The notes beneath the pieces are model-generated. The model did not search any database and had not been told where the DNA came from. It saw nothing but the letters and a program-made list of their open reading frames with translations. Positions 1 through 22,205 of a DNA stretch of 22,205 nt are shown piece after piece (position 1 is the stretch's first letter; every line of letters begins with the position of its first letter). The position numbers were made by a program, and so were the translations under genes. This stretch comes from a virus: positions 1 through 22,205 of the IMG/VR virus record IMGVR_UViG_3300009149_003335, one strand, 5' to 3'.

Positions 1-1
1 C

Positions 2-2386: not shown

Positions 2387-2387
2387 G

Positions 2388-3933: not shown

Positions 3934-3935
3934 TG

Positions 3936-3964: not shown

Positions 3965-3976
3965 AATAAAAACATT

Positions 3977-6084: not shown

Positions 6085-6535
6085 CATTCAACAAGAAATG
6101 GTTAACTTCTGCACAACAATGGGGCTTACTCAGTTTAAAGGAAAGGTATCTATTGATCTACCTAGTCTTATAAATGATCTGGACGCTGGTCTCAATGGAA
6201 GGACTACCGAAGAAATAGAATACTTGATGACAAAGATTCATGCCTTTAATTTGGATCTTAAGAATAAAAAGAGCAGCCTTAAAGCTTTCATCACCATAAA
6301 AGAGCAGCAGGTTAATAAATATGTATCAGAAAATCTACATCAGGTAACAGACATGTACACCCCATTTGAGTTCAAGAAAGAATTAATAATATCTAAGAGT
6401 GTAACGGTATCACAGGCGTATAAAGATTTATTGAGGTCTAAGTCTCAGTTAGAAAAAATTGGAGACATACCTTTCAGTATAGATAAAGTAATAGCTTCTA
6501 TGGAAGTATATATGAGAAGAAGGTATTCCCAGTGA
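6077..6535 (+). CDS. Hypothetical helical protein between nuclease and helicase genes
   Basis: I do not recognise this 152-residue protein. It is predicted mostly helical, with a lysine-rich middle part (FNLDLKNKKSSLKAF) likely to form a helical hairpin or coiled coil, and an Arg-rich C-terminus (YMRRRYSQ). GGAG at 6066-6069 sits 7 bases before the start, which overlaps the upstream gene by 8 bases. The stop overlaps the GTG start of the helicase gene. A helicase loader or adaptor is often encoded next to a phage replicative helicase, so that role is worth testing, but no P-loop or known loader motif is present. Confidence 0.75.
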   Translation: MNDIQQEMVNFCTTMGLTQFKGKVSIDLPSLINDLDAGLNGRTTEEIEYLMTKIHAFNLDLKNKKSSLKAFITIKEQQVNKYVSENLHQVTDMYTPFEFKKELIISKSVTVSQAYKDLLRSKSQLEKIGDIPFSIDKVIASMEVYMRRRYSQ

Positions 6536-9276
6536 GTGAAATTTCAAAAAAGTCAGAGTTTAATCTGCTATCCTATTTAGTTAAGAATCCGAATTATATT
6601 TTTGATATAGATGGTGTAAACATTGAAGATTCTGATTTTTCAACTAACGTACTAAGAAACATATATAGATGTATAAAACACATTAGTGCGGAAAACTCTT
6701 CAATAAAAGAAGACGTACCGATTGATCCAATCATAGCAGAAGAATATATTGCTAAGACGTGGAAAAACGACTATGAAAGAAACGCCGATAAATATTCAGA
6801 CACCATAGATAGGCTTATAAAAAACAATTCATTTGACTCAAGGTCATTGGGAAAGTATGTAAGTATAATAGTTTCAGAGTCTTATAGAAGTAAGATAAAG
6901 AAAGAACTTGGGCAACTAGGAAACTCTCTAGACGATATGCACAATGCTCCAGAGATGATCGAAACAGTGGAGAAGAATGTATACGACTTTACATCCAGTC
7001 TTTTCGTTGGAAATGATCTAATACACATTGGCTCAGAGTACGAAGCTTTTATTCAAAATGTAGCAGAGAGAGCTATTCAAGGCGAAATAGACACAGGTAT
7101 CAGTACGGGGTTTGATGTATTCGACGAAGCTGTTGGAGGTGGCCTCAGAAGAGGTACGATTAGTGTTATAGCTGCTCGCCCAAAGCGGCATAAATGTGTT
7201 AACTCTTATGAAACAATGATTTACACCTCTAAAGGTATTCTTTATCCATATGAAATGCATGATGTTGTAAATGATCAAAAAGTTGATGAAATAGACTATA
7301 AGCTTATCTCCGAGAACGGAACATGGAGAAAGCCAGCATATTGGTGGAATAATGGAATTGATAAAACTAAAAAAATAACCACTAAATTTGGCTATGAAAT
7401 AGAGGCCACCCACGAACACCCTATCAAGTGTATAGACGAGGGTGGAAACATTGTTTGGAAGAATTGCGGAGATATAAGAGAGACTGATGTTTTAGTAATG
7501 ATCCGAGGAAATGGAATCTTTAACACTTCTAAGGATTTAAACGAAGACGCTTACGTCCTAGGATTACTGTGTGGAGATGGTCATATTAGAGATGAATCAA
7601 CTAGTCTTACTACTATGGACGAATGCTGCGCTAAAGCATTTTCTGAGTCCTGCTCATCTAAAGGCTTCATAGTTGGTCAATATACAAAGAAGGACAATAA
7701 GGCCAGCTCATATGTAGTATGTGATAAAAAGAGCAAGGTATTAATAGATAAAGAGGATCTATATGATTCTGATAATAAAAAAATAATGCCGCTATCTATT
7801 AGGACTGGAAGCAAGAGGTCTATGTGTATGTTCATTAGAGGACTATTTGATGCAGATGGAGGATTTTCTGACAAGGTGCATTGGACTACTAATAGCAGTA
7901 GGCTTCATAGAGAAGTTAAAACCATACTTCTAGCACTGGGGATTGTTAGCTCTAGTCATATTATGAACGTAGTTCCACCTGGGCATACTGAATCCAGGGA
8001 GTATTATCAGCTATCTATTAGATCTGTTAATTCAATGATGCTGTTTAAAAATATTATAGGGTTCGGTTTACCAAGGAAAATGAGCTTACTTAATGATCAT
8101 ATAGAGAAAACTACATCTAGTGAAAAAGTAGATGTCATACTAAACGCTAGTGTTCCCCTTAATGATCTTAAAAACAAAATAATCGAATTAAGAGGGTTCG
8201 CGTTCAATGGTCACAAGAATACATTAAGAGATAGTGTAAATAGGGTTATTAGGCTAGAGAGGGGACTCCAGAGAGAATTTCTTAATAAGGTTCTGGAGGA
8301 ATGGTCAGAATTCAGTTACTTGAACGAGTACAGAAGTCTAAAGAACCTAGCGTCTGAAGACATTCTGTACCAAACAATAAAGTCTATAGAAGACGGAGAG
8401 TGTTTGACTTGTGATTATTACATTGACTCAGATGATCATAGTTTTGTCGCCAATGGATTTATTAATCATAATTCTTTCCTAGCACTTACTATAGCTAACA
8501 ATGTTTCTACTAATGGAGTCCCTGTTCTTTATCTTGATACCGAGCTTTCAGAAGAATTACAGATGTCTCGCCTTACTTCAATAGAAACCGGCGTACCTCT
8601 TCATTATATTGAAACAGGGAAATTCGTTGGCCATCAGGGTTACAGCGAAAAGATTAAGAAAATGTCTGAAGACGTAAAAGATAGACCATTTGACTATGTT
8701 CAGATAGCGGGTTGGTCTATTGAGAAACAAGTATCAATCATAAGACATTGGTTTGCTAAAAGAGTTGGCAAAGACGACTCTGGCCGATGGAACAATGCTC
8801 TAGTAATACTAGACTACCTAAAGCTAATGAACGCTAAAGATAAAAATGGAGACAAAGAATATGAGGCTCTGGGTTTTAGAATATCTCAACTACACGATCT
8901 AATGAGAGACTACGACAATCCGATGCTTGCACTGGCTCAGCAGAATAGATCAGGGATAGAAGTAGAAGACTCGACAACTATCTCTGGCTCAGACAGAATT
9001 ATCTGGCTGTGTGATAATTTCAGCATACTATCGAAGAAGTCTGATGCAGAGCTTAGACAGATCGCAGAGCATCTTAAAGAAACTCCAGAGTACGAAGATC
9101 AATTTTCAAATATGAAACTGAATGTAGTTGAGTGTCGTCATGGTCCAGGTTGCCAAAATGGTGAATTCATAGGTCTTTATTGCGACTTCAAAGATTTCAG
9201 GAAGGATTCTAAAGAATGCAATGGAAAACTAAGAGAAGTGGGGCTGGAAAGGCCAATGTCGGATGAACATCAATAA
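6532..9276 (+). CDS. dnaB: Replicative DNA helicase, DnaB type, interrupted by an in-frame intein
   Basis: The precursor is 914 residues; removing the intein at residues 222-647 leaves about 488, normal for DnaB. The product unwinds DNA 5' to 3' ahead of the phage polymerase and works with the primase encoded next. Residues 1-170 form the helical N-terminal domain. The RecA-like domain starts at STGFDVFDEAVGGGLRRG, as in DnaB enzymes. The P-loop reads AARPKRHK (intein) SFLAL, so the spliced motif has His220-Lys221-Ser where Gly-Lys-Ser/Thr is usual. Walker B is ALVILDYLKLM with Asp761. ALAQQNRSG and SGSDRIIWL match later DnaB motifs. The GTG start has AAGG at 6520-6523 and overlaps the preceding stop codon. 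ATPase activity should require splicing, because the intein splits the nucleotide-binding loop. Confidence 0.95.
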   Translation: MSEISKKSEFNLLSYLVKNPNYIFDIDGVNIEDSDFSTNVLRNIYRCIKHISAENSSIKEDVPIDPIIAEEYIAKTWKNDYERNADKYSDTIDRLIKNNSFDSRSLGKYVSIIVSESYRSKIKKELGQLGNSLDDMHNAPEMIETVEKNVYDFTSSLFVGNDLIHIGSEYEAFIQNVAERAIQGEIDTGISTGFDVFDEAVGGGLRRGTISVIAARPKRHKCVNSYETMIYTSKGILYPYEMHDVVNDQKVDEIDYKLISENGTWRKPAYWWNNGIDKTKKITTKFGYEIEATHEHPIKCIDEGGNIVWKNCGDIRETDVLVMIRGNGIFNTSKDLNEDAYVLGLLCGDGHIRDESTSLTTMDECCAKAFSESCSSKGFIVGQYTKKDNKASSYVVCDKKSKVLIDKEDLYDSDNKKIMPLSIRTGSKRSMCMFIRGLFDADGGFSDKVHWTTNSSRLHREVKTILLALGIVSSSHIMNVVPPGHTESREYYQLSIRSVNSMMLFKNIIGFGLPRKMSLLNDHIEKTTSSEKVDVILNASVPLNDLKNKIIELRGFAFNGHKNTLRDSVNRVIRLERGLQREFLNKVLEEWSEFSYLNEYRSLKNLASEDILYQTIKSIEDGECLTCDYYIDSDDHSFVANGFINHNSFLALTIANNVSTNGVPVLYLDTELSEELQMSRLTSIETGVPLHYIETGKFVGHQGYSEKIKKMSEDVKDRPFDYVQIAGWSIEKQVSIIRHWFAKRVGKDDSGRWNNALVILDYLKLMNAKDKNGDKEYEALGFRISQLHDLMRDYDNPMLALAQQNRSGIEVEDSTTISGSDRIIWLCDNFSILSKKSDAELRQIAEHLKETPEYEDQFSNMKLNVVECRHGPGCQNGEFIGLYCDFKDFRKDSKECNGKLREVGLERPMSDEHQ
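7195..8472 (+). mobile_element. Intein with LAGLIDADG endonuclease motifs, inserted in the helicase P-loop
   Basis: This is a 426-residue in-frame intein. It starts at Cys222 (CVNSYETMIYTSKG) and ends with the canonical His-Asn (FVANGFINHN), with Ser648 as the first downstream extein residue. The block B motif is IEATHEHPI. Two LAGLIDADG-type motifs are visible: YVLGLLCGDGH with Asp349, and FIRGLFDADGG with Asp440/Asp442. All residues needed for standard splicing are present (Cys1, block B Thr-x-x-His, C-terminal His-Asn, Ser+1). The junctions were placed by restoring the helicase sequence RPKRHK-SFLALTIANN. The endonuclease would promote homing into intein-free helicase alleles. Confidence 0.95.
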
Positions 9277-10252
9277 GATAAAGAAGTTAAACTTCAATTT
9301 AAGCCTACATGTCGATGAACTTTTACTGGCGTTGGGGTCTTCTATATGTGAATTTTCAGAACACGGCTCTTCTATAAGAGGTCCGTCAATTTGTCACGGT
9401 GGAGATAATCCAACTGGATTCACCCTATATGAAGATCCTCCAATTTGGTGCTGCTGGACCAGAGGTTGTCATGAAGATTCGGGGTGTGATTTGGTTGGGC
9501 TTGTATCTTCAGTCAAGCAAATTAGTCGCAAAGAAGCTACAGATTTTGCAATTGCTTTTCTTGACAACAAAGACAGTGTTGAATACATAGAAGCTAAGAA
9601 AAAAGTGAATATAGATTATGTATCAGAACATCTAAAACAGCGGAAGTTTACTAAGAAAATATATGAAAAACTAATAGACGACACATCTTATCTAGAAAGC
9701 AGAGGTTATCCAAGGTCAGTTCTAACAAAAATGAATTGTGGCCTCTCTGAGTATGGATCTATGAACAATAGAGTTGTATTTCCAATAAAAGACATGAACG
9801 GGGAGCCTGTTGGGTTCACAGGTAGAACTATTGTTGACGACTCCTCTAAGTGGAGTAACACTATTTTTAGAAAATCTATAAACCTTTTAAACATAGATAT
9901 TTGCAAAGAATTTATAGAAAGAAAAGGAATAAAGAAGGTTATATTGACAGAAGGGCCACTAGATGTTGCGCGTCTTTGTCAAGCAGGGTATTGGAATTCT
10001 ATGGCAGTAATGGGCTCTGCTGTCACAAACGGGCAAGCTCACATATTAAAAAATATGGGAATAGTCGGAGTAGTTCTCATGATGGACAATGACGAAGGCG
10101 GGCAAGATAGCGAATTAAGAAATAATTCTAAGCTACAAAGGGCTATGTTAGATGTAGAGGTTATATATCCTGACGAAGAAGAGTCAGACGTAGGGGATAT
10201 GAGTATAAAAGAAATTAGAAGCAAGCTAAAGGATATAAATTGGAAGATTTAA
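9263..10252 (+). CDS. DnaG-like primase with zinc finger and Toprim domain
   Basis: This 329-residue protein has two recognisable parts. A CHC2-like zinc finger is formed by Cys44-His45 and the later cysteines Cys63/64 and Cys69. The Toprim domain has Glu230 in VILTEGPLDVARL and Asp275 and Asp277 in LMMDNDEGG, the acidic residues that bind catalytic metal. Between them, residues about 155-190 (RVVFPIKDMNGEPVGFTGR) match the N-terminal part of the DnaG catalytic core. It makes RNA primers for the lagging strand. It is shorter than cellular DnaG and lacks a C-terminal helicase-binding domain, as is common in phages. It overlaps the helicase gene by 14 bases, so the two are likely co-translated. 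Confidence 0.9.
   Translation: MNINKIKKLNFNLSLHVDELLLALGSSICEFSEHGSSIRGPSICHGGDNPTGFTLYEDPPIWCCWTRGCHEDSGCDLVGLVSSVKQISRKEATDFAIAFLDNKDSVEYIEAKKKVNIDYVSEHLKQRKFTKKIYEKLIDDTSYLESRGYPRSVLTKMNCGLSEYGSMNNRVVFPIKDMNGEPVGFTGRTIVDDSSKWSNTIFRKSINLLNIDICKEFIERKGIKKVILTEGPLDVARLCQAGYWNSMAVMGSAVTNGQAHILKNMGIVGVVLMMDNDEGGQDSELRNNSKLQRAMLDVEVIYPDEEESDVGDMSIKEIRSKLKDINWKI
10229..10232 (+). promoter_or_regulatory. Ribosome binding site supporting a TTG start
   Basis: AAGG lies 7 bases before the TTG at 10240 and inside the end of the primase gene. It supports this non-ATG start for the dNMP kinase. Confidence 0.55.
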
Positions 10253-10890
10253 TAGTAGGAATATGTGGTAGAGCTGGAACAGGTAAGAACACTTTCTGTG
10301 AACTATCTACTGGAATGTTAACCACGGCAGGTGTTGACTCTGTGCATACATCATTCGCTTCTCCAATTAAAAGACTAATTGTTGATTGCTACGGAATACC
10401 TGAAGAGTACGCTTTTGGAGGAGATACCAAGAAGAAAACTAGCTTCGGGACGTGGGGTGATTTCTTTCCTCTAACTATGCCTAAAAACAAGCTCCCGTCT
10501 GACAAGATGTCAGTTAGAGAGATGTTGACACACCTTGGAACCGACATATTTAGGAATACGGTTGATAAAGAATTTTGGACTAAGACCTTCAAGAGAAGGG
10601 TGGAAGCTAAAAGATATGATACTGAGTTTGTACAATTTGGTGGGAGAAGGATAGTTTACGTTACAGATGTAAGATTTCAAAATGAAGTAGATATTATAAC
10701 TGAAATGGGTGGCTATAACATTAAATTAGACAGGCTTGTTCCGTTTCATTCACACTCAAGTGAAGATTCTGTAGATTTGATTCCAGACGAATGTTTCTGG
10801 AGACTCTTAGAAGACGAACAAATAAGAGGTATAAGAAATCTAAAGATACAGATTTCTTCAATAATTTATGCATTGGAGTTGGCGGCATGA
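10240..10890 (+). CDS. Deoxynucleoside monophosphate kinase (T4 gp1-like)
   Basis: This 216-residue protein has a P-loop at the N-terminus (GICGRAGTGKNT, with Lys16) and the segment VYVTDVRFQNEVD near residues 140-150, both characteristic of the phage dNMP kinase family. T4 gp1, the prototype, phosphorylates dTMP, dGMP and hydroxymethyl-dCMP. Here it would raise dNMPs to dNDPs for replication, and in T4 it is also the step that admits modified nucleotides. A TTG start overlaps the primase stop and is supported by AAGG at 10229-10232. The end overlaps the next gene in an ATGA. Together with the MazG-like and PurA-like genes it makes up the nucleotide-supply set of this window. Confidence 0.87.
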   Translation: MEDLIVGICGRAGTGKNTFCELSTGMLTTAGVDSVHTSFASPIKRLIVDCYGIPEEYAFGGDTKKKTSFGTWGDFFPLTMPKNKLPSDKMSVREMLTHLGTDIFRNTVDKEFWTKTFKRRVEAKRYDTEFVQFGGRRIVYVTDVRFQNEVDIITEMGGYNIKLDRLVPFHSHSSEDSVDLIPDECFWRLLEDEQIRGIRNLKIQISSIIYALELAA

Positions 10891-11183
10891 TGGTAAAGAT
10901 TAGAGTTATATTAGAAGATGCTAAAAAGCTAGAAGAAATCCAAAGCGGTGTTTCTGCTGTAGTTTCAGCTACTAAAAACAAAGATCTTGTAGAAGGGGTG
11001 GTTTTGGGCGAGTACGAAGACGGTAGTCCAAGCGAACCACTTTTTCTAAGAGAATTGATTGATCTAGAAGAAGAAGTAGATATAGAAAAAGACTTGTTTT
11101 TTCTACTATCTCGTGATATTTGGGATGGTGCAAAAGAATCTAAAATAATATGGAACAAGTTCATAGATGAGTTGGAAGAGTAA
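10887..11183 (+). CDS. Small acidic hypothetical protein
   Basis: I do not recognise this 98-residue protein. It is acidic and probably alpha/beta: a strand (MVKIRVILED), a helix with an Ala/Val-rich face, and long acidic helices (LIDLEEEVDIEKDLFFLL). I chose the ATG at 10887 because GGAG at 10875-10878 is 8 bases upstream and the start forms the usual ATGA overlap with the kinase stop. An upstream in-frame ATG at 10791 would overlap the kinase by 100 bases. It sits between the dNMP kinase and the Cas4/RecB-like nuclease. No function is supported. Confidence 0.7.
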   Translation: MMVKIRVILEDAKKLEEIQSGVSAVVSATKNKDLVEGVVLGEYEDGSPSEPLFLRELIDLEEEVDIEKDLFFLLSRDIWDGAKESKIIWNKFIDELEE

Positions 11184-12193
11184 TGAGAATAGATCGCATG
11201 AGTGCGAGCAAAGCCAAAACGTGGGAATCATGTGAGTTCAAGTATTTTCTTAATTATACATTGTTTGCCCCTCAAAAGGCCCACTTCGCAGCAGAGCTTG
11301 GTTCTCTATTACACGTTGTTTTTGAAAGATACGCCCAAACATATATCAGCCCAGATGGAATCGATGAAGAAGGTAAGGATAAAGCTTGGCTAGATAGCAA
11401 CTGGAAGAAAATTGTTCTTAAAGAAGGTTTTCAAACTCTAACTAGTTGGGAATACAACACTCACATTCTAAAAGAGTCTAAGAATTGCGATAGTTGTAAA
11501 GCATTCAAGAATGGAAAGTGTGGAGTAGTCAATAGAAATATAGATGACTTCGATGGCTGCCCCTGGAATGCCTGGGTTGAAGCGTGTAACATGGTTTCTC
11601 GTGTCATAGACGATGAAACAGAGTTTGGGGTCTTTAGTAATCCAGATAGAATAATCGGATCTGAAGAAGAGTTTAGGTTCGACATAATGGATGGTGAAAA
11701 CGGATACACAGTAAATGGAATAATTGACTTGGTTCTAGATATTGATGAAGACACCATTGAGATTGTTGATTATAAAACTGGTAGACACAAATTGTCATAT
11801 AGTGCGGCAGAAAAAGATATTCAATTAATGCTATACTATCTTGCTGCGCGTAAAATGTATCCACACAAGAAGCACCACATGGTTACTATCTTTTATGTTA
11901 ATGGTGGCAAGAAGCAAATAACTCTAGCATTTAGTGAGAAAACTGAACAACAAATAACAGATAGAATCATAATGCTGTGGCGTGCTATTAAATCTGAAAA
12001 AAGACCTACTAGAATAGCTGATAAATCCAATGGAGCTGTTCAACCTAATCATATTTGTAAGTACCTATGCAATTGGGACTTATGTCAACAGGTTCATCCA
12101 AAGTTTGTAGAATACATTGATGCAGGAGGAAATGTAGAAGACCTACATTCACTAGAAGACCTCGGATTCGAGGTAGAAGAGAAAAATGACTAA
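11183..12193 (+). CDS. PD-(D/E)XK nuclease, Cas4/RecB type, with probable iron-sulfur cluster and extra Cys cluster
   Basis: This 336-residue protein opens with SASKAKTWESC, like other Cas4/AddB/RecB-family nucleases. Catalytic residues follow in order: His44, Asp182 in VNGIIDLVL, Asp196-x-Lys198 in EIVDYKTG, and the QxxxY motif Gln214-Tyr218. Cys17 plus Cys292, Cys296 and Cys301 match the split four-cysteine iron-sulfur site of this family. A separate set, Cys102, Cys105, Cys113 and Cys126, lies in an insertion before the core and may bind a second metal. Family enzymes are DNA exonucleases; in phages they often resect ends for an annealing protein such as the one at 1778. There are no CRISPR features nearby. 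The gene overlaps the upstream stop by one base and the next start by 8 bases. Confidence 0.87.
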   Translation: MRIDRMSASKAKTWESCEFKYFLNYTLFAPQKAHFAAELGSLLHVVFERYAQTYISPDGIDEEGKDKAWLDSNWKKIVLKEGFQTLTSWEYNTHILKESKNCDSCKAFKNGKCGVVNRNIDDFDGCPWNAWVEACNMVSRVIDDETEFGVFSNPDRIIGSEEEFRFDIMDGENGYTVNGIIDLVLDIDEDTIEIVDYKTGRHKLSYSAAEKDIQLMLYYLAARKMYPHKKHHMVTIFYVNGGKKQITLAFSEKTEQQITDRIIMLWRAIKSEKRPTRIADKSNGAVQPNHICKYLCNWDLCQQVHPKFVEYIDAGGNVEDLHSLEDLGFEVEEKND

Positions 12194-12710
12194 AATTATA
12201 AACTTACTAGGAGGACCGGGTTCAGGAAAGTCTACTAGTGCTGCTTTGATTTTTGGTAAAATGAAAGAACAAGGGATATCCGTTGAACATGTTCAAGAGT
12301 ATGTTAAAAGTTGGGCTTGGGAGGGTAGAAAAATAGAAGAGTTCGATCAACTGTACATTTTTGCTAAACAAGCTCGCAGAGAATACACTATCATGAACAA
12401 GGTTGATTTTATTGTTACAGATTCTCCAGCTTTTCTTAGTGAATTTTATGAACAGAAATACTACTCTAATCACATAGTTAGAAATGCTATGTCTGATTAT
12501 ATGAATTCTATAAGTCTAGCTGGGGGGGAGTATTGCAACTTCATGCTCAGAAGAAATAAACCATATAATCCTCATGGAAGATATGAGACCGAAGAAGAAT
12601 CTAGGGTTATTGATCAAGAAATGCGAAACTGGATGGACAAAAGAGGCTATTCTTATACAGAGGTTGACTCATACAAAGAAATTTTAGAAATAATAGGAGA
12701 AACACTATGA
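12186..12710 (+). CDS. P-loop ATPase/kinase (AAA_28, NadR-kinase-like)
   Basis: This 174-residue protein begins with a strand and Walker A motif (LLGGPGSGKST, residues about 8-17). A probable Walker B-type segment follows in VDFIVTDSPAFLSEFY around residues 74-89. RRNKPYNPHGRYETEEES resembles the lid region of small nucleoside or NadR-type kinases found in many phages. Its substrate cannot be read from sequence; nucleosides, ribosyl cofactor precursors or nucleic acid ends are candidates. The end overlaps a very short membrane-peptide gene. Kinase or ATPase of the P-loop class is secure, the reaction is not. Confidence 0.78.
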   Translation: MTKIINLLGGPGSGKSTSAALIFGKMKEQGISVEHVQEYVKSWAWEGRKIEEFDQLYIFAKQARREYTIMNKVDFIVTDSPAFLSEFYEQKYYSNHIVRNAMSDYMNSISLAGGEYCNFMLRRNKPYNPHGRYETEEESRVIDQEMRNWMDKRGYSYTEVDSYKEILEIIGETL

Positions 12711-12802
12711 ATTATAAAGCTAAAAGACTCCTAGCTATTGTGGGATTAAGTTCTATGCTTGCTGTAGTTATGTCAATCGCCTATGTTGGTGTCGCCAACT
12801 AG
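12707..12802 (+). CDS. 31-residue single-pass membrane micropeptide
   Basis: The ATG overlaps the preceding stop codon in an ATGA. The peptide has a basic N-terminus (MNYKAKR) followed by about 22 hydrophobic residues and a short end, the shape of a single inner-membrane helix. GGAG at 12696-12699 is 7 bases upstream. Its function is unknown; it could modulate a membrane process, or attach replication proteins to the membrane. The coupled start, the clean membrane segment and the immediate next start at 12803 argue that it is translated. Confidence 0.5.
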   Translation: MNYKAKRLLAIVGLSSMLAVVMSIAYVGVAN

Positions 12803-13238: not shown

Positions 13239-13241
13239 TGA

Positions 13242-13328
13242 ATGAAAATCGGAATATCACAGACTATGGTTGGATTGATAAAAAGAAAAGAAGTATGGAA
13301 AGAAGCACTAAATGAAGCCAATGAGTAG
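13242..13328 (+). CDS. Possible 28-residue peptide before the polymerase gene
   Basis: A short frame starts 3 bases after the preceding stop and overlaps the first 17 bases of the polymerase gene. The peptide is basic and helical (VGLIKRKEVWKEAL). It could be a real micropeptide or a translational leader coupling ribosomes to the polymerase start. No strong Shine-Dalgarno sequence is visible, so it may be a chance frame. Confidence 0.25.
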   Translation: MKIGISQTMVGLIKRKEVWKEALNEANE

Positions 13329-16300
13329 TAATTACGTATCACTCCACTCACATTCTCACTACAGTCTCTTGGATTCTATGACAAAGATCGAGGATGCTGT
13401 AGCTAGAAGTAAAGAACTGGGCCACTCAGCCTATTCTCTTACAGATCATGGTGTAGTTGCTGGGCATATTAGGGCATATCTAGAGTGTCAAAAGCACGGT
13501 GTAAAGTTTATACCTGGAATTGAAGCATACTGGACAGATGAGCATACGGACAAAGTTCGTAAGTCTAGGCATATAACTATCTTAGCTAAGAACAATAAGG
13601 GTCTTGAGAACCTATATAAAATGGTAACTTGGTCCAATGTTCCAGTTGACAAAGGTGGTGGGTTCTTTTATCGACCCCGTATCTCTTGGAAAGAGCTTGA
13701 GAAGTACAAAGAGGGTCTCATTATACTATCAGGATGCATGAATTCTCCTTCTAACCACAACTTCGTCCATGAAGGATATGAGCAAGGCAAAGATGTAGTT
13801 AAGCGTCTTAAGAGTATCTTTGGATATGATAATCTATTCATAGAACTACAAAATGTAAACGAACCTGGCAAGATTTTCATTCCTGAACAAGAGCTTATAC
13901 TAAACAACTGTAGACAAGTTGCTCAAGAATTAGATATCAGATCTGTTGCAACTAACGATTGTTTTACTCCTGACACTCTAGTTAAGACTACCCGTGGAGA
14001 AGTTAGAATAGATAATGTCAAAATTGGGGACAAAGTATATTCTCACAACGGCAACATTAACAAGGTTGAGCATGTAAATGTAAGAGGTATTGATAGTGAA
14101 ATATATGAAATAATTCCAAGTTTTGGAAGTAGAACTATAAAGTGCTCCAAGAATCACCCCATATTGGTGTGTAGAGGTAATATTAAGGGAGAAACAAATA
14201 GAGACTATCTCAACTACGACTTCCAATGGATTAAGTCTTCAGACCTAAATGATAATGATTTGCTTTGCATTACCAAGCTGAACCCCAATGATGGGCCGAA
14301 TTGCGGAAAAAGGGTCGTAAACATAAAATCTATACTTGAAAGATCTAGATCATATAAGAAAAACCACCACGTATTTAACGATGGCATGATAACCAGTCCT
14401 AAAGTTGGAAAATTGGGTAAGAAAATATCCATACCAGAGAAGCTTGAAATTTGTGATGATTTATTAGCAATATTTGGGCTTTATTTGGCTGAAGGATACA
14501 TAGATGGAAACAACCTTGGATTTGCATTTCATTCTAGTGAAGGATATCTGGTTGAAATTATAGACAACTACTTTAGAAAATTCAACTACTCTCCATGCAT
14601 ATCAAAAAAAGGTGAAAATGGCATTTGTATAAGGGTTACGTCGAGAATATTTACAGAAGTATTCAAGAAGCTATTCGGGAAAGGCGCAGAGAACAAGTGG
14701 ATAAACGCTTCTGTTGACTCAAAAAATAACAATTGGTCAAACAATCAGTTGGCAATGATCCTAAAGTACTACTTTATTGGCGACGGCCATGTTGACAAAA
14801 AAAGAAACAAGATGTTGGTATCTACAGTGTCGGAGAGATTGGCGTGGGATGTCTCTAATTCCCTAAATAGGTTGGGAATTTGCTCTATTCCAGAATCTAG
14901 AGATGGAGCAAAATGTTCTAAAAATCACAAAAACGCAAAGTCAGATTGGAAAGACTCTTATCAAATAACCCTCTCTGGAGGCAACTTTGAAAAGGCTATA
15001 AAGCTCAATGTAATAGAAGACTTCAAAGAAAGAGATAATTCAGTTGGTTCTAGATTCTTTGAAACTGATGAGTTCTTTTTAGTTAGAATTGAAAAAATAG
15101 ACAAGATTAAATCAAAAGATAGGCTTTGGAACTTACAGGTTTCTAGGGATGAGACTTATATAGCCAATGGGTTTGCTGTTCATAATTCCCACTATGTTTA
15201 CAAAGAGGATTCTTTTCCTCATGAGGTTCTAAAGGCGATCGAAGCAAGAGCAACCCTAGACACTCCTATCGTGGATCACGCAAAGGGGATAACTAAAGGT
15301 AGACTCGTATTTAATGGCTTTGATTACTATGTAAGATCAGAAGAAGAGATGCGAACAAAGTTCTCAGAGGACGAAGTTAACAACTCTAAACTTATTGCAG
15401 ACATGGTTGATGTAACAATCAACATGGACATGAAGATGCCCAAGTATAAGGGCATGTCTGATGAAGAGTGTCTTGAAGCTCTAAAAGCGGTTGCTCGAAA
15501 TGGCTGGAAAGAGTTAAATATATCTGATAAGGAAAACAAAGCCGACTATCTTGAAAGAATTCAACACGAAATAGGAGAGATAGAGGAAGCTAACCTACAA
15601 CACTATTTCATGATTGTCTATGATGTTTGTAAGTTCTGTGACGACAATGGAATAATCCGTGGATATGGTAGAGGAAGTTGTGCTGGATCGTTGATTCTGT
15701 ATCTACTAAAAATAACACGATTCGCTGACCCTGTTCAATATGGTCTTATCTGGGAGAGGTTTTACAACATCGGTCGCAAAGGATCGATGCCGGATATTGA
15801 TCTCGATATTCAGATTGACCGAAGAGAAGAAGTTGTTGAATATCTCAAAGAAGAGTTCGGTAAAGATCGAGTTCTACCCATGATGACTATTTCAACTCTA
15901 ACTGCCAAAGGTGTACTTAAAGATGTTGGCAAGGTCATGGGCCTTACTCATGAATACATGAATGCCCTAACAAAGCATATCAAGAATAAGAATAAGGGTC
16001 TCCAAGATGCCATTGATTCTTCTGACTACCTAAGCAAAGTACAGTTTGGTGTTGACGAAGACGTAGAACAGTGGGAAGAAGAGATCTTAGCATCTGACGA
16101 CGCTGTAGAGAAAAGATTCATTGGAGAGAAAGTCAACGATAGAAAACGAAGACTTCTACAAACCTTTAAGGTTGCTCACAGATTAGAAGGTGTAAACCGA
16201 AACAGATCAACTCACGCTTGCGCCATACTTATCTCAGATGAAAGTGTCTTTGGTAAAATTCCGTGCGCGTGGGACGCCAATAAGAAAAACCTCTTAACGG

Positions 16301-18786
16301 GAATCGATATGTATGACGTTGAGAGACTAGGTTATATGAAGCTAGATGTGCTTGGTCTTAAAACCCTTTCAGTAGTATCTAGGACTATGCCCAACTTCTT
16401 AGATGAAATAACTTCATTCGACGACGAAGATGTATTTGGATTAATAGCCAGGGGAGATAACAAGGGTGTGTTCCAGCTAGAGTCTAAACTGGGCCAAGTT
16501 TGGTCCAAGAGAGTTCGTCCTGAGAACATTGAAGATCTCGCTGCCCTGATCTCAATCATTAGACCGGCGGTTCTAGAAACCGGGCTAGCTGATCAATATA
16601 TAGAGAATAAAAGGCGCGGTACTTGGGATTGCATTCATGAGGATCTTGAGCCAATATTTAGAAACACCTTTGGAGTAATGCTCTATCAGGAGCAGATGCT
16701 TGAAGTTGTAAGGAAGTTCGGCAACTTCGACATGAAAGAGGCTGACAGCTTGAGAAAAGCTGTTGGTAAAAAGATACCTGAGCTTATGGCTACGTTTAAA
16801 GAGAGATTTATTGAAGGTTGTAACGCGCAGCACAATAACCCGGTCCTAGCCGATGAGCTTTGGGGTTGGATTGAAAAAGGCGCCGAGTATTCATTCAATA
16901 AATGTGTATCGGGATCAACTATTGTTAATAGAGGGTTTGGTAATAAAAATAGCAAATTGCTTGGAGGAGTAACTATCGAACATCTTTATAAAGTGTTGAA
17001 TGATTTGGATTATGCAAAAAAGACTAATTCCATACCATTAAGAAAAAAGATGCAAAAAAAATCATTTGGATATGGTAATATACTATCACTTGATGGAGAC
17101 GGAAGAATTAGACCAAATAAAATTAAAGATATAATCTATACAGGAGAAAAAGAAACATATACAATTAGACTTAGCGATAACACTACTGTCAGAGCTACTA
17201 AAGATCATAAGTTTTTCTGTGATAATAATAGTTTCACTAAAGTTGAGGACATGGTAGTTGGGGAGACTAAAATTGTATCCAATGGCGGGTATGAAAAATG
17301 TACTAATAAATATGGATTTAGTAATAGCACTAATGAAAACAAATATAGACCTTATGCAGATCCCAAATGTGGGTTCCATAATGGGTTGCAAAATCCTGCG
17401 TTTACCAATGGATCATTTACAGAGTTTGTTAAAACTAAAAAGAAATTGTCCTCAATAGAGTATTGTCAAAATTGTGGAATAACAAATGGCCGTCTTGAAC
17501 ACCACCACATTGACGGAGACAGAGCCAATAGTGCTTATGAAAACATTATTAAGCTTTGTCCATCATGTCATAAAAAAGAAGAGTACAAGACTGGAAGGGT
17601 AAAGGTCTGGGAAAAGGGCCATAAGACAAAGACTGTTACAGTACAATCAATAGATTATTATGGATTTGAAGATACTTATGATATAGAAATGGACACACCA
17701 GAGCACAACTTTATGGCCAATGGACTAGTATCCTCCAATTCTCACGCTCTAACATATGGAATGATGGCATACACTACGGCTTTCGCTAAGCTTAATCACC
17801 CCCTAGAGTTTTACTGTTCAATGCTTCAGCTTTCTGAGAATGAACAGAAGCCACAGGAAGAAATTGCAGAGATATTCTATGATGCTAAACTAAAAAACAT
17901 CGAGGTGCTACCACCTTCTATCATTCACTCTAAAGAAGATTTTACTATATCTGATGGAAAGATATACTTTGGTCTAAACAGCATTAAGAAGATCGGAAAC
18001 GCATCTATCAAGGCTATTAAGAGAATGTCTACTGATTGTAAGACTACCACTGACTATGTGGTAGAGGTTAGCAAACTTAAGAAAGACGTGGCAGAAGCGT
18101 TGTGCTTCTCTGGGGCACTTGACTTCCTAGGTGTAGACAGGACTGAGATATTTACATTCTTAACTTTGATGAAATCAATTTCTAAAAAAGAACAAGCCAT
18201 ACTTAAGGCTATTATAGAAAAAAGTGGCGAATACGACGCTTCAACATCTAGATCAACTAAGATTCTAAGTGTTCCGGTGGCTGAAAACATAGGAGATGCA
18301 TACAACAAATTCAGAGAGTACGTCACGACACAGGCGCAAGAAGATAAGATCATTACAGCTAAGAGATCTGTTAAAATAATTGAGATTTACAAAGAAAATG
18401 ATCGTATTAACAGTAATTCGGTAAGAGAGCACGTTATGGCGGCACGAGAGCTGATTTTTCTTGGGATTCCTATAAAGTATTGTGAAGTAGATATTTACAA
18501 CAATAAGAAGAAAACTCACAATATGATAAACATAAAAAAAGAGATGCCCGGTAAGAAGTTCAGCACTGTAGCTGTCATAACTAGAGTAACAAAGCGATCC
18601 GATAAAAAAGGTAGAGAAATGGCTTTTATATCAATGACTGACAAAAGCTTTATGATGGACGGACTAGTGTTCGCAGATGCTTTTGAGAAAAGCAAAGACA
18701 GTATAAAGCTTGGCAATCTAGCTTACATAGAAGGCAAAATATCTAGAGACGGAAGTCCTATAGTAGATTTGGTAGAGGCTATATGA
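13312..18786 (+). CDS. dnaE: DNA polymerase III alpha subunit (C family) with two in-frame inteins
   Basis: The precursor is 1824 residues; removing inteins at 217-625 and 1198-1476 leaves about 1136, close to E. coli DnaE (1160). This is the phage replicative polymerase. The PHP domain is first, with metal-binding motifs HSHSHYS and LTDHGVVAG intact. The palm has GRGSCAGSLILYLLKIT, then Asp828 and Asp830 in MPDIDLD, and a third catalytic Asp1012 in LDVLGLKTL. The fingers motif YSFNK-SHALTYG is restored only after splicing. An OB-fold lies near the C-terminus (about residues 1745-1820). No separate proofreading exonuclease domain is seen, so the PHP domain may proofread. ATG 13312 is used; ATG 13321 in the same frame is an alternative. 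The end overlaps the next gene in an ATGA. Confidence 0.97.
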   Translation: MKPMSSNYVSLHSHSHYSLLDSMTKIEDAVARSKELGHSAYSLTDHGVVAGHIRAYLECQKHGVKFIPGIEAYWTDEHTDKVRKSRHITILAKNNKGLENLYKMVTWSNVPVDKGGGFFYRPRISWKELEKYKEGLIILSGCMNSPSNHNFVHEGYEQGKDVVKRLKSIFGYDNLFIELQNVNEPGKIFIPEQELILNNCRQVAQELDIRSVATNDCFTPDTLVKTTRGEVRIDNVKIGDKVYSHNGNINKVEHVNVRGIDSEIYEIIPSFGSRTIKCSKNHPILVCRGNIKGETNRDYLNYDFQWIKSSDLNDNDLLCITKLNPNDGPNCGKRVVNIKSILERSRSYKKNHHVFNDGMITSPKVGKLGKKISIPEKLEICDDLLAIFGLYLAEGYIDGNNLGFAFHSSEGYLVEIIDNYFRKFNYSPCISKKGENGICIRVTSRIFTEVFKKLFGKGAENKWINASVDSKNNNWSNNQLAMILKYYFIGDGHVDKKRNKMLVSTVSERLAWDVSNSLNRLGICSIPESRDGAKCSKNHKNAKSDWKDSYQITLSGGNFEKAIKLNVIEDFKERDNSVGSRFFETDEFFLVRIEKIDKIKSKDRLWNLQVSRDETYIANGFAVHNSHYVYKEDSFPHEVLKAIEARATLDTPIVDHAKGITKGRLVFNGFDYYVRSEEEMRTKFSEDEVNNSKLIADMVDVTINMDMKMPKYKGMSDEECLEALKAVARNGWKELNISDKENKADYLERIQHEIGEIEEANLQHYFMIVYDVCKFCDDNGIIRGYGRGSCAGSLILYLLKITRFADPVQYGLIWERFYNIGRKGSMPDIDLDIQIDRREEVVEYLKEEFGKDRVLPMMTISTLTAKGVLKDVGKVMGLTHEYMNALTKHIKNKNKGLQDAIDSSDYLSKVQFGVDEDVEQWEEEILASDDAVEKRFIGEKVNDRKRRLLQTFKVAHRLEGVNRNRSTHACAILISDESVFGKIPCAWDANKKNLLTGIDMYDVERLGYMKLDVLGLKTLSVVSRTMPNFLDEITSFDDEDVFGLIARGDNKGVFQLESKLGQVWSKRVRPENIEDLAALISIIRPAVLETGLADQYIENKRRGTWDCIHEDLEPIFRNTFGVMLYQEQMLEVVRKFGNFDMKEADSLRKAVGKKIPELMATFKERFIEGCNAQHNNPVLADELWGWIEKGAEYSFNKCVSGSTIVNRGFGNKNSKLLGGVTIEHLYKVLNDLDYAKKTNSIPLRKKMQKKSFGYGNILSLDGDGRIRPNKIKDIIYTGEKETYTIRLSDNTTVRATKDHKFFCDNNSFTKVEDMVVGETKIVSNGGYEKCTNKYGFSNSTNENKYRPYADPKCGFHNGLQNPAFTNGSFTEFVKTKKKLSSIEYCQNCGITNGRLEHHHIDGDRANSAYENIIKLCPSCHKKEEYKTGRVKVWEKGHKTKTVTVQSIDYYGFEDTYDIEMDTPEHNFMANGLVSSNSHALTYGMMAYTTAFAKLNHPLEFYCSMLQLSENEQKPQEEIAEIFYDAKLKNIEVLPPSIIHSKEDFTISDGKIYFGLNSIKKIGNASIKAIKRMSTDCKTTTDYVVEVSKLKKDVAEALCFSGALDFLGVDRTEIFTFLTLMKSISKKEQAILKAIIEKSGEYDASTSRSTKILSVPVAENIGDAYNKFREYVTTQAQEDKIITAKRSVKIIEIYKENDRINSNSVREHVMAARELIFLGIPIKYCEVDIYNNKKKTHNMINIKKEMPGKKFSTVAVITRVTKRSDKKGREMAFISMTDKSFMMDGLVFADAFEKSKDSIKLGNLAYIEGKISRDGSPIVDLVEAI
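13960..15186 (+). mobile_element. Intein 1 of DnaE, LAGLIDADG type, inserted in the PHP domain
   Basis: This is a 409-residue in-frame intein. It starts at Cys217 (CFTPDTLVKTTRGEV) and ends with His-Asn (YIANGFAVHN), followed by Ser626. Block B is TIKCSKNHPI, with Ser in place of the usual Thr. Endonuclease motifs are FGLYLAEGY (Glu394) and YYFIGDGHVD (Asp491). Excision restores RSVATND-SHYVYKED, matching the ATND segment of bacterial PolIII alpha PHP domains. The site is in the PHP domain, a less usual location than the polymerase active site. Confidence 0.95.
16903..17739 (+). mobile_element. Intein 2 of DnaE, HNH type, inserted in the polymerase core
   Basis: This is a 279-residue in-frame intein. 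It starts at Cys1198 (CVSGSTIVNRG), has block B at VRATKDHKFF, and ends HNFMANGLVSSN before Ser1477. The C-terminal pair is Ser-Asn instead of His-Asn. In place of LAGLIDADG it carries an HNH domain: Cys1385-x-x-Cys1388, EHHHIDGD (His1397-1399, Asp1401), Asn1411, and Cys1416-x-x-Cys1419. Excision restores EYSFNK-SHALTYG, a highly conserved DnaE segment. The insertion point is three residues downstream of the cyanobacterial split DnaE intein site (known biology, before CFNKSH). Confidence 0.95.
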
Positions 18787-19199
18787 TAAATAAAGATGAA
18801 CTAGAATCAAAGCTTGATTTTTGGGCAGATGTATTAGGTTTGTCAGGTTGGGACATAAAAACCAAAATAGTTAATAAACAAAAGTTAATGGAAACAATAG
18901 AAAAGTTAGATGGGAAAAAATCAGAACCGGACGATATTTGTCTGGGGGCAGTGGTTGAACATTATCAGTCTGAGCAAGTTGCTTCTATCCTGTTTTTAAA
19001 AGATGCTGATAAAGAGTTTGGACTACAGTTAAACCTAGATACATTAATTTTACACGAACTAATTCACATTGCTTCTGGTGAGCAATTTGAAAGACTTCCT
19101 AAGGCGGCTAAAATCAGCCCAAAAACAAAAGAGCTTGAAGAGTGGGTTTCTGACTTCTTTGCAAGAAAAATCTACCAAGCTTATACAGAAGGAGAATAA
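18783..19199 (+). CDS. HExxH putative metallopeptidase-like phage protein
   Basis: This 138-residue protein contains His91-Glu-x-x-His95 (LHELIHIAS), the zinc and catalytic motif of gluzincin/SprT-like folds. A downstream Glu-rich helix (LEEWVSDFFARKIY) may give the third ligand. The N-terminal part (LGLSGWDIKTKIV) followed by a hydrophobic strand before the helix resembles a family of short phage HExxH proteins of unknown role. It starts in the stop codon of the polymerase gene and precedes ssb, so it is embedded in the replication operon. A Spartan-like role in clearing protein blocks from DNA is attractive but unproven; no zinc-ribbon DNA-binding tail is seen. Confidence 0.72.
   Translation: MINKDELESKLDFWADVLGLSGWDIKTKIVNKQKLMETIEKLDGKKSEPDDICLGAVVEHYQSEQVASILFLKDADKEFGLQLNLDTLILHELIHIASGEQFERLPKAAKISPKTKELEEWVSDFFARKIYQAYTEGE
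19189..19194 (+). promoter_or_regulatory. Ribosome binding site setting the ssb start
   Basis: AAGGAG sits 6 bases before the ATG at 19201. It fixes the ssb start there, although the frame stays open upstream to 19069 inside the HExxH gene. Confidence 0.8.
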
Positions 19200-19200
19200 T

Positions 19201-19635
19201 ATGTCGAACAAGAATACTAATTCAATTTTCGTAGCGGGAATCCCAAAGTGGGTTAAAGTCCGCCAAGCAGGAGAGAGTGTTGTAACTTCATTCTCTCTAA
19301 ATCATACCGATAGAAAGGATCGTAAGCACTTTTTTAATGTTAGTATGTGGAATCTCAGCGAAGACAAGATTGAGATTCTTAAGAAGTGTGAAGATGAAAT
19401 CCTAGTTAAAGGTAGGCTTCGTTTTGATGAGTATGAGAAAGATGGGTTAAAGGTTCGCACTGTAGCAATTGATGGCTTCGACTTTGACACCAAGCTTGAA
19501 GCAGCACCTAAGCCTACTGAATTTGCAGCAGCTAAAGATGTTTCCTCTAAAGCTCCAACTGCCAATGAGATGATCAATGCGGAAAACGACCCGTTTGATG
19601 ATGCTACTCTTGAAGATGATCCTTTCGGACAGTAA
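19201..19635 (+). CDS. ssb: Single-stranded DNA-binding protein
   Basis: This 144-residue protein fits a bacterial-type SSB. The OB-fold occupies about residues 8-100, with RKHFFNVSMWN at about 41-51, DEILVKGRLRFDEYEKDG at about 66-83 and VRTVAIDGFDFD closing the fold. A low-complexity linker rich in Ala, Pro and Thr follows, and the C-terminus ends in an acidic tip, DDPFGQ. That is comparable to the acidic Phe-containing SSB tip that recruits partner proteins, though here two residues follow the Phe. It protects single-stranded DNA behind the helicase. The start is set by AAGGAG at 19189-19194. It is followed after 9 bases by the glycosyltransferase gene. Confidence 0.9.
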   Translation: MSNKNTNSIFVAGIPKWVKVRQAGESVVTSFSLNHTDRKDRKHFFNVSMWNLSEDKIEILKKCEDEILVKGRLRFDEYEKDGLKVRTVAIDGFDFDTKLEAAPKPTEFAAAKDVSSKAPTANEMINAENDPFDDATLEDDPFGQ

Positions 19636-19640: not shown

Positions 19641-19644
19641 ACTT

Positions 19645-22205
19645 TTGTCAAAAAAGAATAAGAAAAAGAGTAGTATAGGTCATAAATTTACGGAATCAAA
19701 GATCCCTTCCCAGATTTTGGGAGGGGACTTTGACCCATCTATGCACGACCCTGCCGTTCTAGAAGAACGAATAGCTAATGGGTGTAACAAAGACGTAGAA
19801 GAGATAAGGGTCTTATTTGTATCTGAAGCTTCTTATCTACATACAGGTTTCTCAACTTATATGAGAGAAGTCTTGAAGCGTCTAATGAAAAACCCTAAGT
19901 TTAATATAGCTGAACTTGGAGCGTATGGTCATAGCCCCGAACAAGAACCTAGGGCTGGAAATATTCCTTGGAAGTATTATCCCAACATGCCAAAGACCAA
20001 CGAAGAGGAGCAGTCATACAAAGCTAACTATAAAGACAACCAGTTTGGAAAGTGGAAGTTTGGTGAAGTTCTAGAAGACTTTAAACCTGACATTCTATTG
20101 CTACACAGAGATTGGTGGATGGATAAATTTGTTCTTGAGAATCAACTATCTAAAAAGTTCCATATAATTTGGATGGCTTGCCTTCCTCCAGGTACTCCTA
20201 TCCTTACAGATAGTGGGTATGTAGACATAGAAAGCGTTAGGTCAGGAGATCGGGTTGTCTCGCACACAGGAGAAATAAGAACTGTAACTGAGACTATGCA
20301 AAGAAAGTCTGATGGAACCCTGATGGAGATAACCTCTAGGTCAGATTCGTCACCAATTTCTATGACTCCAGAGCACCCGATGTTGGTATTTAAAAAAGAT
20401 AAAAACGATAGAAGGAGCAATAGATCTTCGGTTTATAAAGATAAGACCCCTGTATGGACGGAGGCTAAGGATATAAGTGTTGGAGATTTAATTTGCTTCC
20501 CAATTATCAAACAGAGCTTTTTTGATGAAAAAATATCTATTTCAGAGAATGTGCCTGAGTTGAATTTAAACTACGAAGGTGGCTATGTTTCCCTCAGTAA
20601 AAGCAATCATGTGGTTAAAGAAAGTATAGATATAAATGAGGATTTCGCTAGATTAATAGGCTACGCACTGGGAGATGGTGGAAGATGCTATAATGATAGA
20701 TTTGGGATTGTGTTTGAAAAACATGAGAAATCTTTTGCTATAGATGTTGCAAATATAATGCAAAAATCTTTCGGCCTAGAATCTACTATTAATACTAGAG
20801 AGTCTGGATCACATGAGGTAATATGCCACAGTAAGATATTGGGAACATTCTTTATGAATGCAACCAATAATAAGAATTCTATACCCAAGTTCATAATGCT
20901 AAATAGTACTAAAATAAGAAAATCATTTTTAGCAGGACTAATAAGAGCAGATGGGCATTACAAGAGTTGTAAAAATGTAAGCATAACCTGTTCAAAAAAA
21001 GGTCTAGCTAATGAAATTAGAGCACTAATGCTATCATGCAAATATGGGGTAACCATAAGGAAGTATGATAAACTCGCTGGTGAAATAGACGGCAGAGAGT
21101 GTAAAGGCTCATCCTATTTTAGAATAAAGACTGGCATTGGGTCTGATATAAAAGATATAGACAGCTATACTAAGAAATATGGAGAAATAGAATTTACTCC
21201 TAATGAAAAAACTAGAGCAGTTGTTCATTTTGTTGGAAATTATGCAGTATCTGCCGTTGAAAGCATAATAGAAAAGGAATATGATGGCTATGTGTACAAC
21301 TTTGAAGTTGAAGTTGACAATAGTTACACTAGTAATTTCATTGTTCACAATTGCATAGACTCTTATCCGCAGCAGTGGTCTTGGCTAAAGAGTTATACGC
21401 AAGTTGACACTGTAATGGCTTATTCCCACTTTGGTAAAAAAGTAATGGAAGATCAGTCCCGAACCAAGCTAGCAGAATTTAATGGTGTAGTTCCGATTGA
21501 TGTTAAGTATGTTTGCCCAGGTGCCTCCGATCCTAATGTTTTTAAACCACTAAATAAAACTGACGTAAAAAGATCTCTAGGTATTGATCCAGATATGAAG
21601 ATAATCGGGACGGTGATGAGAAATCAGCCCAGAAAACTTTTCACTAGGCTTATTGAGTCATTTGCACTATTTCTAAGAAAATATCCAGATAAAGCCAAAA
21701 ATACTTTTCTAATGCTGCATACTGGAATTCCAGACGTAGGGTTTGATATACCAGAATCTATTCATAGATTTGATGTAGAAGATCGTGTAATATTCTCTTG
21801 GCTTTGTCACTCGTGTGGTAAAAACGGGGTAGCTCTCTGGGGCTTTGTTGGACAAGAATGTCCTAGTTGTAAAAAGAAAGTTCTAGATGGAACTAATCAA
21901 CCTTGTATTAATACTCCCAACACAGCTAGGGGTCTACCTGATGACAAGCTAAATGAGATATACAATGTCATGGATCTTTATATACAGGCAAGCATCTGCG
22001 AGGGATGCCTCGATGGGGATAGCCTGGTAACGAGTAAAGATGGACTTAAGAAGATAAAGGATATAACAACCGATGATTATGTTCTATCTCTTGAGGGAAA
22101 TTGGCAAAAGGTCAATAAAGTCTTTAAAAACGATCCAACGATTGATGTATATGAACTACAGGTGGCCGGAAGTAGTGACAATTTAACGGTTACTGGTAAT
22201 CACCC
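19645..22205 (+). CDS. GT4-type glycosyltransferase with two inteins, 3' end missing
   Basis: The frame is open from TTG 19645 to the window end (853 codons plus). Removing intein 1 joins IIWMA to CIDSYPQQW. The extein reads as a GT-B glycosyltransferase: an N-terminal Rossmann domain (IRVLFVSEASYLHTGFSTY, then DILLLHRDWW), a linker, then AYSHFGKK and NGVVPIDVKYVCPGASDPNVF, typical of group 1 enzymes. The C-terminal domain starts at IIGTVMRNQPRK. A four-Cys zinc ribbon (Cys721, Cys724, Cys739, Cys742) is inserted before LNEIYNVMDLYIQASICEG, the usual EGxG donor-sugar region, where intein 2 begins. It transfers a sugar to an unknown acceptor; DNA, virion or host surface are all possible. Its place after ssb makes DNA worth considering. 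Confidence 0.88.
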   Translation, partial: MSKKNKKKSSIGHKFTESKIPSQILGGDFDPSMHDPAVLEERIANGCNKDVEEIRVLFVSEASYLHTGFSTYMREVLKRLMKNPKFNIAELGAYGHSPEQEPRAGNIPWKYYPNMPKTNEEEQSYKANYKDNQFGKWKFGEVLEDFKPDILLLHRDWWMDKFVLENQLSKKFHIIWMACLPPGTPILTDSGYVDIESVRSGDRVVSHTGEIRTVTETMQRKSDGTLMEITSRSDSSPISMTPEHPMLVFKKDKNDRRSNRSSVYKDKTPVWTEAKDISVGDLICFPIIKQSFFDEKISISENVPELNLNYEGGYVSLSKSNHVVKESIDINEDFARLIGYALGDGGRCYNDRFGIVFEKHEKSFAIDVANIMQKSFGLESTINTRESGSHEVICHSKILGTFFMNATNNKNSIPKFIMLNSTKIRKSFLAGLIRADGHYKSCKNVSITCSKKGLANEIRALMLSCKYGVTIRKYDKLAGEIDGRECKGSSYFRIKTGIGSDIKDIDSYTKKYGEIEFTPNEKTRAVVHFVGNYAVSAVESIIEKEYDGYVYNFEVEVDNSYTSNFIVHNCIDSYPQQWSWLKSYTQVDTVMAYSHFGKKVMEDQSRTKLAEFNGVVPIDVKYVCPGASDPNVFKPLNKTDVKRSLGIDPDMKIIGTVMRNQPRKLFTRLIESFALFLRKYPDKAKNTFLMLHTGIPDVGFDIPESIHRFDVEDRVIFSWLCHSCGKNGVALWGFVGQECPSCKKKVLDGTNQPCINTPNTARGLPDDKLNEIYNVMDLYIQASICEGCLDGDSLVTSKDGLKKIKDITTDDYVLSLEGNWQKVNKVFKNDPTIDVYELQVAGSSDNLTVTGNH
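20179..21351 (+). mobile_element. Intein 1 of the glycosyltransferase, LAGLIDADG type
   Basis: This is a 391-residue in-frame intein. It starts at Cys179 (CLPPGTPILTDSG), has block B at ISMTPEHPM, and ends NFIVHN before Cys570. Two endonuclease motifs are visible, LIGYALGDGG (Asp344) and LAGLIRADGH (Asp436). Excision restores an uninterrupted Rossmann-domain segment ending HIIWMA-CIDSY. Cys is used as the first downstream residue, unlike the Ser in the helicase and polymerase inteins. Confidence 0.94.
22006..22205 (+). mobile_element. Start of intein 2 of the glycosyltransferase, truncated by the window end
   Basis: The first 66 residues of a second intein are visible, from Cys788 (CLDGDSLVTSKDGLKKI) to block B at LTVTGNHP. 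It follows ICEG directly, where glycosyltransferases continue with the EGxG donor-binding motif. The endonuclease type and C-terminal junction lie outside the window. An alternative first Cys at 21997 fits block A less well. Confidence 0.88.

Follow-up and report, generated by a model that had tools for sequence, protein, structure and literature searches.

In the accessible parts of the source, zeta crAss-like phages are reported to carry up to 3 inteins and up to 14 introns per genome, a density termed unprecedented (PMC7886860). An archaeal MCM intein was described, in the available part of PMC10643990, as needing co-conversion of a +1 proline to serine. No intein-bearing phage glycosyltransferase was named in the titles or abstract parts among the matches listed, and the accessible part of PMC7468147 tabulates 6 variable glycosyltransferase genes with 0 inteins. 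Here we analysed the 22,205-nt virus record IMGVR_UViG_3300009149_003335 (the whole stretch, referred to below as the window), which carries inteins in a DnaB-like helicase, a DnaE-type polymerase and a glycosyltransferase (GT). With good confidence, these were read as independently acquired selfish homing inteins in a tailed phage of a lineage under repeated intein invasion, most likely caught while spreading. Five inteins lie in frame within single open frames, one in DnaB, two in DnaE and two in the glycosyltransferase, the last being cut by the window end. The features are as follows (aa, amino acids; a slash marks a splice junction).

6532..9276, + strand: DnaB-like replicative helicase gene, precursor of 914 aa, extein of 488 aa (Pfam DnaB_C 56.1 bits, PHROG 19)
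7195..8472, + strand: DnaB intein, 426 aa, LAGLIDADG type, ARPKRHK/C...HN/SFLAL, in the Walker A loop
13312..18786, + strand: DnaE-type DNA polymerase III alpha gene, precursor of 1824 aa, extein of 1136 aa (Pfam PHP, DNA_pol3_alpha, DNA_pol3_finger and HHH_6; PHROG 405)
13960..15186, + strand: DnaE intein 1, 409 aa, LAGLIDADG type, VATND/C...HN/SHYV, in a conserved part of the PHP region
16903..17739, + strand: DnaE intein 2, 279 aa, 837 bp, HNH type, EYSFNK/C...SN/SHAL
19645..22205, + strand: glycosyltransferase gene, running off the window, with one complete and one cut intein (PHROG 2170 glycosyltransferase, E 3e-16)
20179..21351, + strand: GT intein 1, 391 aa, LAGLIDADG type, IIWMA/C...HN/CIDSYP
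22006..22203, + strand: GT intein 2, first 66 aa only, SICEG/C... (TIGR01445 25.2 bits, above cut-off)

All four complete inteins begin with Cys and end with Asn, and the +1 residues are Ser, Ser, Ser and Cys (DnaB, DnaE-1, DnaE-2 and GT-1, respectively). GT intein 2 also begins with Cys, and its +1 residue is Cys if contig L031 (described below) is the continuation. In DnaE intein 2 the terminal Asn is preceded by Ser instead of His, as in PDB entries 7qil and 4kl6. The intein N-terminal model TIGR01445 matched at the five predicted starts, above the cut-off at all except that of DnaE intein 1 (13960; 20.6 bits against 24.5); as a control, the same model matched in 4 of 14 well-known genomes and in neither of two intein-free relatives, G002 and G003. 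Pfam Intein_splicing and LAGLIDADG_3 scored above their cut-offs in each of the three host proteins. An endonuclease-type domain was found in every complete intein, LAGLIDADG_3 above the cut-off in three and HNH in DnaE intein 2, the latter at 21.3 bits, 0.1 bit under the curated cut-off of 21.4. DnaE intein 2 had the lowest GC content at third codon positions (0.254) and the lowest codon similarity (0.835) of the four, which would fit the youngest arrival, with the confounding factor that it is also the shortest. Single-sequence structure models were too poor for use (mean predicted local distance difference test score 33.1 for DnaE intein 2 and 36.9 for GT intein 1), and a viral-contig scan for relatives of GT intein 1 confirmed none.

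The first-pass annotation, made from the letters of the window, had described four complete inteins and a started one in these genes; open frames, junction residues and profile matches bear this out at the same place. Its description of the hosts as three replication-module genes holds for DnaB and DnaE; the glycosyltransferase gene adjoins dnaE and an SSB-like gene (so labelled by eye), yet gave no sign of a replication role. Against the MshA model the glycosyltransferase scored E 3.6e-4, far under the model cut-off. Separately, the DnaB Walker A loop (7174-7194 and 8473, ARPKRHKS) has His in place of the usual Gly (RPKRHKS); the same residue occurs in G002 and G003, so it was taken as a lineage trait and not as an effect of the intein.

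A near-identical phage was found in contig 3300024262_000117 (G001; L005/L019), in which window base 1 corresponds to base 18,566. Identity to the window was 99.86% at the DNA level over bases 1-16903 and resumed at 17737, the two ends overlapping by shared bases. L019 is precisely without DnaE intein 2 (837 bp, in frame) and reads through ...TATTCATTCAATAAA/TCTCACGCT..., and it retains the DnaB intein (99.5% aa identity) and DnaE intein 1 (100% aa identity). Over the 16,903 bp there are 23 base differences, 3 of which fall 17-22 bases before the DnaE intein-2 site:

16881..16886, + strand: cluster of 3 base differences from L019, the next difference upstream being at 15979

To the right of the junction, 127 bp contain 0 differences. 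The chance of such a cluster was P ~3.5e-4 for 2 of 21 events on the one side, 1.4e-3 allowing for both sides, and 3.8e-6 for 3 of 23 bases; its position fits a local gene-conversion tract.

That the intein is missing from L019, or extra in the window, through an assembly artefact appears extremely improbable. Both records are metagenome contigs, and L019 ends exactly 127 bases past the DnaE intein-2 junction; against this, the two alleles differ precisely at the splice points of the intein and in frame, the empty form agrees with that of G002 and G003, and the differences close by reveal a second haplotype. In an assembly graph built with k = 127, a contig would end in this way where empty and occupied alleles branch, so the 127-base end is to be expected and argues that both alleles are present. 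L031, from the same metagenome, begins exactly at the GT-2 junction. Since both contig ends fit branches at k = 127, empty and occupied alleles may well coexist in the 3300024262 sample.

Several points weigh against reading DnaE intein 2, and the set as a whole, as inteins in the act of spreading. The 22-bp stretch on which the P values above are based was picked after inspection of the data. The window Glu codon in the cluster is common to G002 and G003, the Thr of L019 being the odd one, and the cluster could instead mark loss of the intein by recombination or an allele resistant to homing. An exact search for the DnaE intein-2 flank returned the L019 contig as the only other record, so that, with a single near-identical record, direct polymorphism was seen for one intein only. 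By eye, DnaE intein 1 has Ser in place of the usual block B Thr, and the block F His seems to be missing from that intein and from GT intein 1.

Empty sites were also found in more distant relatives, namely a phage type met in four metagenomes (G002; L002, L003, L004 and L006) and a second type (G003; L007). Protein identity to the window was, for G002 and G003 respectively, 60% and 62% in DnaE, 55% and 53% in the DnaB extein, and 55% and 59% in the glycosyltransferase. All five window sites are empty in both, the DnaB site reading ARPKRHKSFLAL, and neither record gave a match to PF14890, TIGR01445 or PF14528. The DnaE intein-1 site is empty in G002, G003 and G010, and the two GT sites are empty in G002, G003, G010 and G011. 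At the four sites other than DnaE-2, empty alleles were thus met in relatives at 53-62% protein identity only. The residue at GT-2 +1 is Cys in the window phage and Asp in G002, G003, G010 and G011 (three phage types), as if the Cys codon had arrived together with the intein, comparable to the +1 co-conversion described for the archaeal MCM intein (PMC10643990). The first-pass annotation had proposed looking for empty alleles in related genomes, and these exist, DnaE-2 being empty at 99.86% DNA identity and all five sites in G002 and G003. Degenerate remnants in relatives, which it had named as evidence against its own idea of regulation, were not found: the relatives are cleanly empty and the window inteins look intact.

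The selfish reading draws on intact frames, junction residues, endonuclease-type domains, insertion in conserved motifs, the presence and absence of DnaE intein 2, the clustered differences and the empty sites. During co-infection the endonuclease domain would cut an intein-free copy of the target gene, repair of the cut would copy the intein into the empty allele, and self-splicing would restore the host enzyme, shielding the insertion from selection. Splicing by the window inteins, cutting by their endonucleases and the direction of change (gain or loss) at DnaE intein 2 are what we infer from sequence. Exact presence and absence between near-identical phages, together with empty sites in relatives, favours mobile elements over a built-in switch.

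Such a switch had been proposed in the first-pass annotation, in which splicing of the DnaB and DnaE inteins could control the timing of phage DNA replication or make it depend on conditions. The DnaB intein lies in the P-loop with Ser at +1, the site of Mycobacterium smegmatis DnaBi1, which the available part of the source reports to be inhibited by H2O2 (PMC6195587), and the insertions interrupt conserved motifs in enzymes that replication is expected to require. DnaBi1, however, belongs to class 3 and is a mini-intein lacking an endonuclease; the window DnaB intein begins with Cys and carries LAGLIDADG. The class 1 intein in the same M. smegmatis DnaB gave no response in the part of that paper at hand (PMC6195587). 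DnaE intein 2 is dispensable to L019 (99.86% identity over 16.9 kb), none of the five sites is occupied in G002 or G003, and the sites differ between intein-rich relatives, those of G011 being mostly others. A phage viable without DnaE intein 2 and relatives without detected inteins speak against a needed switch, and replication control of this kind is considered very unlikely.

A companion contig from the same metagenome as L019 (3300024262_002316; G015, L031; 65,267 bp) provided the continuation of the glycosyltransferase. The first codon of L031 is TGT, and its reading, C-GMPPNEAK..., continues the glycosyltransferase directly past the SICEG/ site of the fifth intein. When the genes of G001 followed by those of G015 were matched to intein-free G003, they mostly formed one order there, and G002 was similar; the exceptions include four genes early in G001 and one in G015, which are placed elsewhere. 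Given the start of L031 at the GT-2 +1 codon and the collinearity with an intein-free relative, G015 was taken as the rest of the same phage; it is very probably the remainder of the window phage's genome, a link that we infer with no read or contig spanning the junction. The ends of the two 3300024262 contigs showed no overlap of 21-127 bases, and an exact search for the DNA immediately before the GT-2 site returned 0 records, records near the window itself possibly having been excluded. The genome span from G001 start to G015 end was calculated as ~105.8 kb (18,565 + 22,005 + 65,267), excluding the remainder of the cut intein.

Seven further inteins were found in G015, with bounds set by eye: one in PhoH, three in a class II ribonucleotide reductase, two in the terminase large subunit (PHROG 5909) and one in a short neck-like protein (a label with no family name behind it). 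Model support was uneven: splicing-domain models matched terminase inteins 1 and 2, reductase intein 3 and the neck-like protein, and three Intein_splicing stretches were found across the reductase as a whole; the PhoH insert matched endonuclease models only. LAGLIDADG_3 matched 6 of the 7 at E 0.001 or better (reductase 1 among these being under the cut-off), and the seventh was 0.1 bit under. In the PhoH gene (L036:1924-3648) the insert begins with Ala and ends HN/T. It has Trp, Cys and Thr at what we take to be the class 3 positions, which makes it a candidate class 3 intein. The site in the neck-like gene is empty in G003; the terminase, reductase and PhoH exteins had no match in the G002 and G003 records, both possibly incomplete, so that those sites are not comparable there. 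Together the twelve intein stretches amount to 4,166 aa, or ~11.8% of the ~105.8-kb span, and one ~106-kb phage genome probably holds twelve inteins in seven host genes. The first-pass annotation was right in calling the density unusual; with the companion contig included, it is probably that of twelve inteins in one genome, more than the window by itself could show. Apart from PMC7886860, no published per-genome phage intein counts were found in the partly available literature, and record status is not claimed for the window phage. The idea that a single intein had recently spread to many sites was rejected: 24 pairs among the twelve match at E 1e-3 or better, at an identity of only 21-33%.

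Intron endonucleases have a role in phage competition. The inteins could likewise be selfish in origin and now also serve as weapons that cut genes of co-infecting intein-free relatives, an addition to homing that is compatible with it and that we hold to be possible, if only tentatively. An endonuclease-type domain is kept in all four complete window inteins (the HNH match with the small shortfall given above) and, by LAGLIDADG_3, in six of the seven of G015, and targets exist in relatives that are largely syntenic and have no detected inteins; these relatives have diverged in DNA (65-79% identity in alignable pieces), which makes cutting across types unsure. In a bolder form, which we regard as doubtful, about a dozen endonucleases, harmless at home since their own targets are occupied, would cut the genes for DNA polymerase, helicase, terminase, reductase and others in co-infecting relatives that lack inteins. 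Intein-rich and intein-free genomes would then be predator and prey, and DnaE intein 2 a weapon sweeping through the population.

G011, a further intein-rich and partly collinear relative of 107,778 bp, gave 7 TIGR01445 matches and nine inteins when its translations were read by eye:

G011: methylase-like gene, 2 inteins; IMP dehydrogenase, 1; ribonucleotide reductase, 3; terminase, 1; DnaE, 2

The DnaE region of G010 reads like that of G011, with a third intein in DnaE. By eye, the occupied sites common to G011 and the window phage are only DnaE FNK/S and reductase ...NP/C. At FNK/S, G010 and G011 have a related mini-intein of 150 aa that lacks HNH; its two parts are 47% and 67% identical to DnaE intein 2. 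Four sites occupied in the window phage, terminase 1 and 2 and reductase 1 and 3, are empty in G011. Since the occupied sites of G011 are mostly other ones, intein occupancy turns over within the lineage.

Matches to DnaE intein 2 in phage records were in thymidylate synthase and in DnaE of Gordonia phage Wojtek, and those in genomes were mostly in ThyX (flanks read by eye). A three-sequence profile found 23 genome loci; flanks were read at 15, of which the 9 Okeania/Trichodesmium loci read as ThyX and 0 of 15 as the DnaE site. A special kinship with the cyanobacterial split DnaE inteins, suggested by PDB matches, was rejected as unproven. Those split inteins are presumably located four residues upstream of the DnaE intein-2 site.

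The DnaE of a related phage (3300025018_000111, L012:5737-7864) has an apparent split intein at the FNK/SH site, the N half ending at a stop (6021) and the C half lying in an other-frame open reading frame from 7631, with a methyltransferase-like open reading frame (6658-7770) between them; a second intein is at its GRG/S site. In cultivated Gordonia phage Wojtek (L061:5001-5798), DnaE carries an intein-like insert with HNH that lies two residues ahead of the window's DnaE-2 site and is seemingly followed, at a putative boundary, by Asn and not by Cys, Ser or Thr. The more distant phage records G012 (L050-L052) and G013 (429 kb, L026 being a part) gave 4 and 5 TIGR01445 matches, those of G012 including one in a P-loop protein, RecA-like by reading.

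Other window genes include part of purA, recA, dnaG, a deoxynucleotide kinase and a PD-(D/E)XK nuclease, besides dnaB, dnaE, the SSB-like gene and the glycosyltransferase. The adenylosuccinate synthetase is a fragment in the window (2-802; PurZ model score 36 against a cut-off of 300), and the whole gene in G001 (18120-19367) retains the GDEGKG motif. On this motif and the low PurZ score, the enzyme resembles PurA more than the enzyme of 2-aminoadenine synthesis. An IMP dehydrogenase is encoded in G015. Upstream of the window's start, the near-identical phage has two adjacent, alike methyltransferase-like genes (L040:14597-15316 and 15643-16395; DPPYGTT...CKWDSVIPFEPMWEQLKRVIKPNG).

The number of inteins in this largely syntenic phage lineage thus extends from none detected to probably twelve, and a single intein is polymorphic between phages that are otherwise almost the same, which makes testable both the spread of inteins between phages and the cost of a heavy splicing load. 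Assemblers may break at inteins, two contig ends here being exactly where occupied and empty alleles would meet.

Compared with described systems, and as far as the accessible parts of the papers go, the window inteins resemble those of mycobacteriophages, which bear endonucleases and interrupt TerL, a RecB-like nuclease, nucleotidyltransferases, methylases, a helicase and other proteins, in many cases at active-site motifs (PMC5050341); they differ in number, one genome very probably holding twelve distinct inteins spread over seven host genes, and in the glycosyltransferase host, which was not met there. The lineage shares with the zeta crAss-like phages (PMC7886860) an overload of mobile splicing elements, although the load counted in the window phage is of inteins only. 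The M. smegmatis DnaBi1/DnaBi2 pair offers the same DnaB P-loop insertion with Ser at +1, as in DnaBi1, whereas DnaBi1 is class 3 and has no endonuclease and the window DnaB intein has a Cys start and LAGLIDADG (PMC6195587). Haloarchaeal MCM genes likewise have neighbouring homing inteins, several per replication gene, with the +1 residue altered on invasion, in an archaeal chromosome as opposed to a phage (PMC10643990). The cyanobacterial DnaE split inteins (PDB 7qil, 4kl6) are the top PDB matches of DnaE intein 2, which, unlike them, is contiguous and carries HNH.

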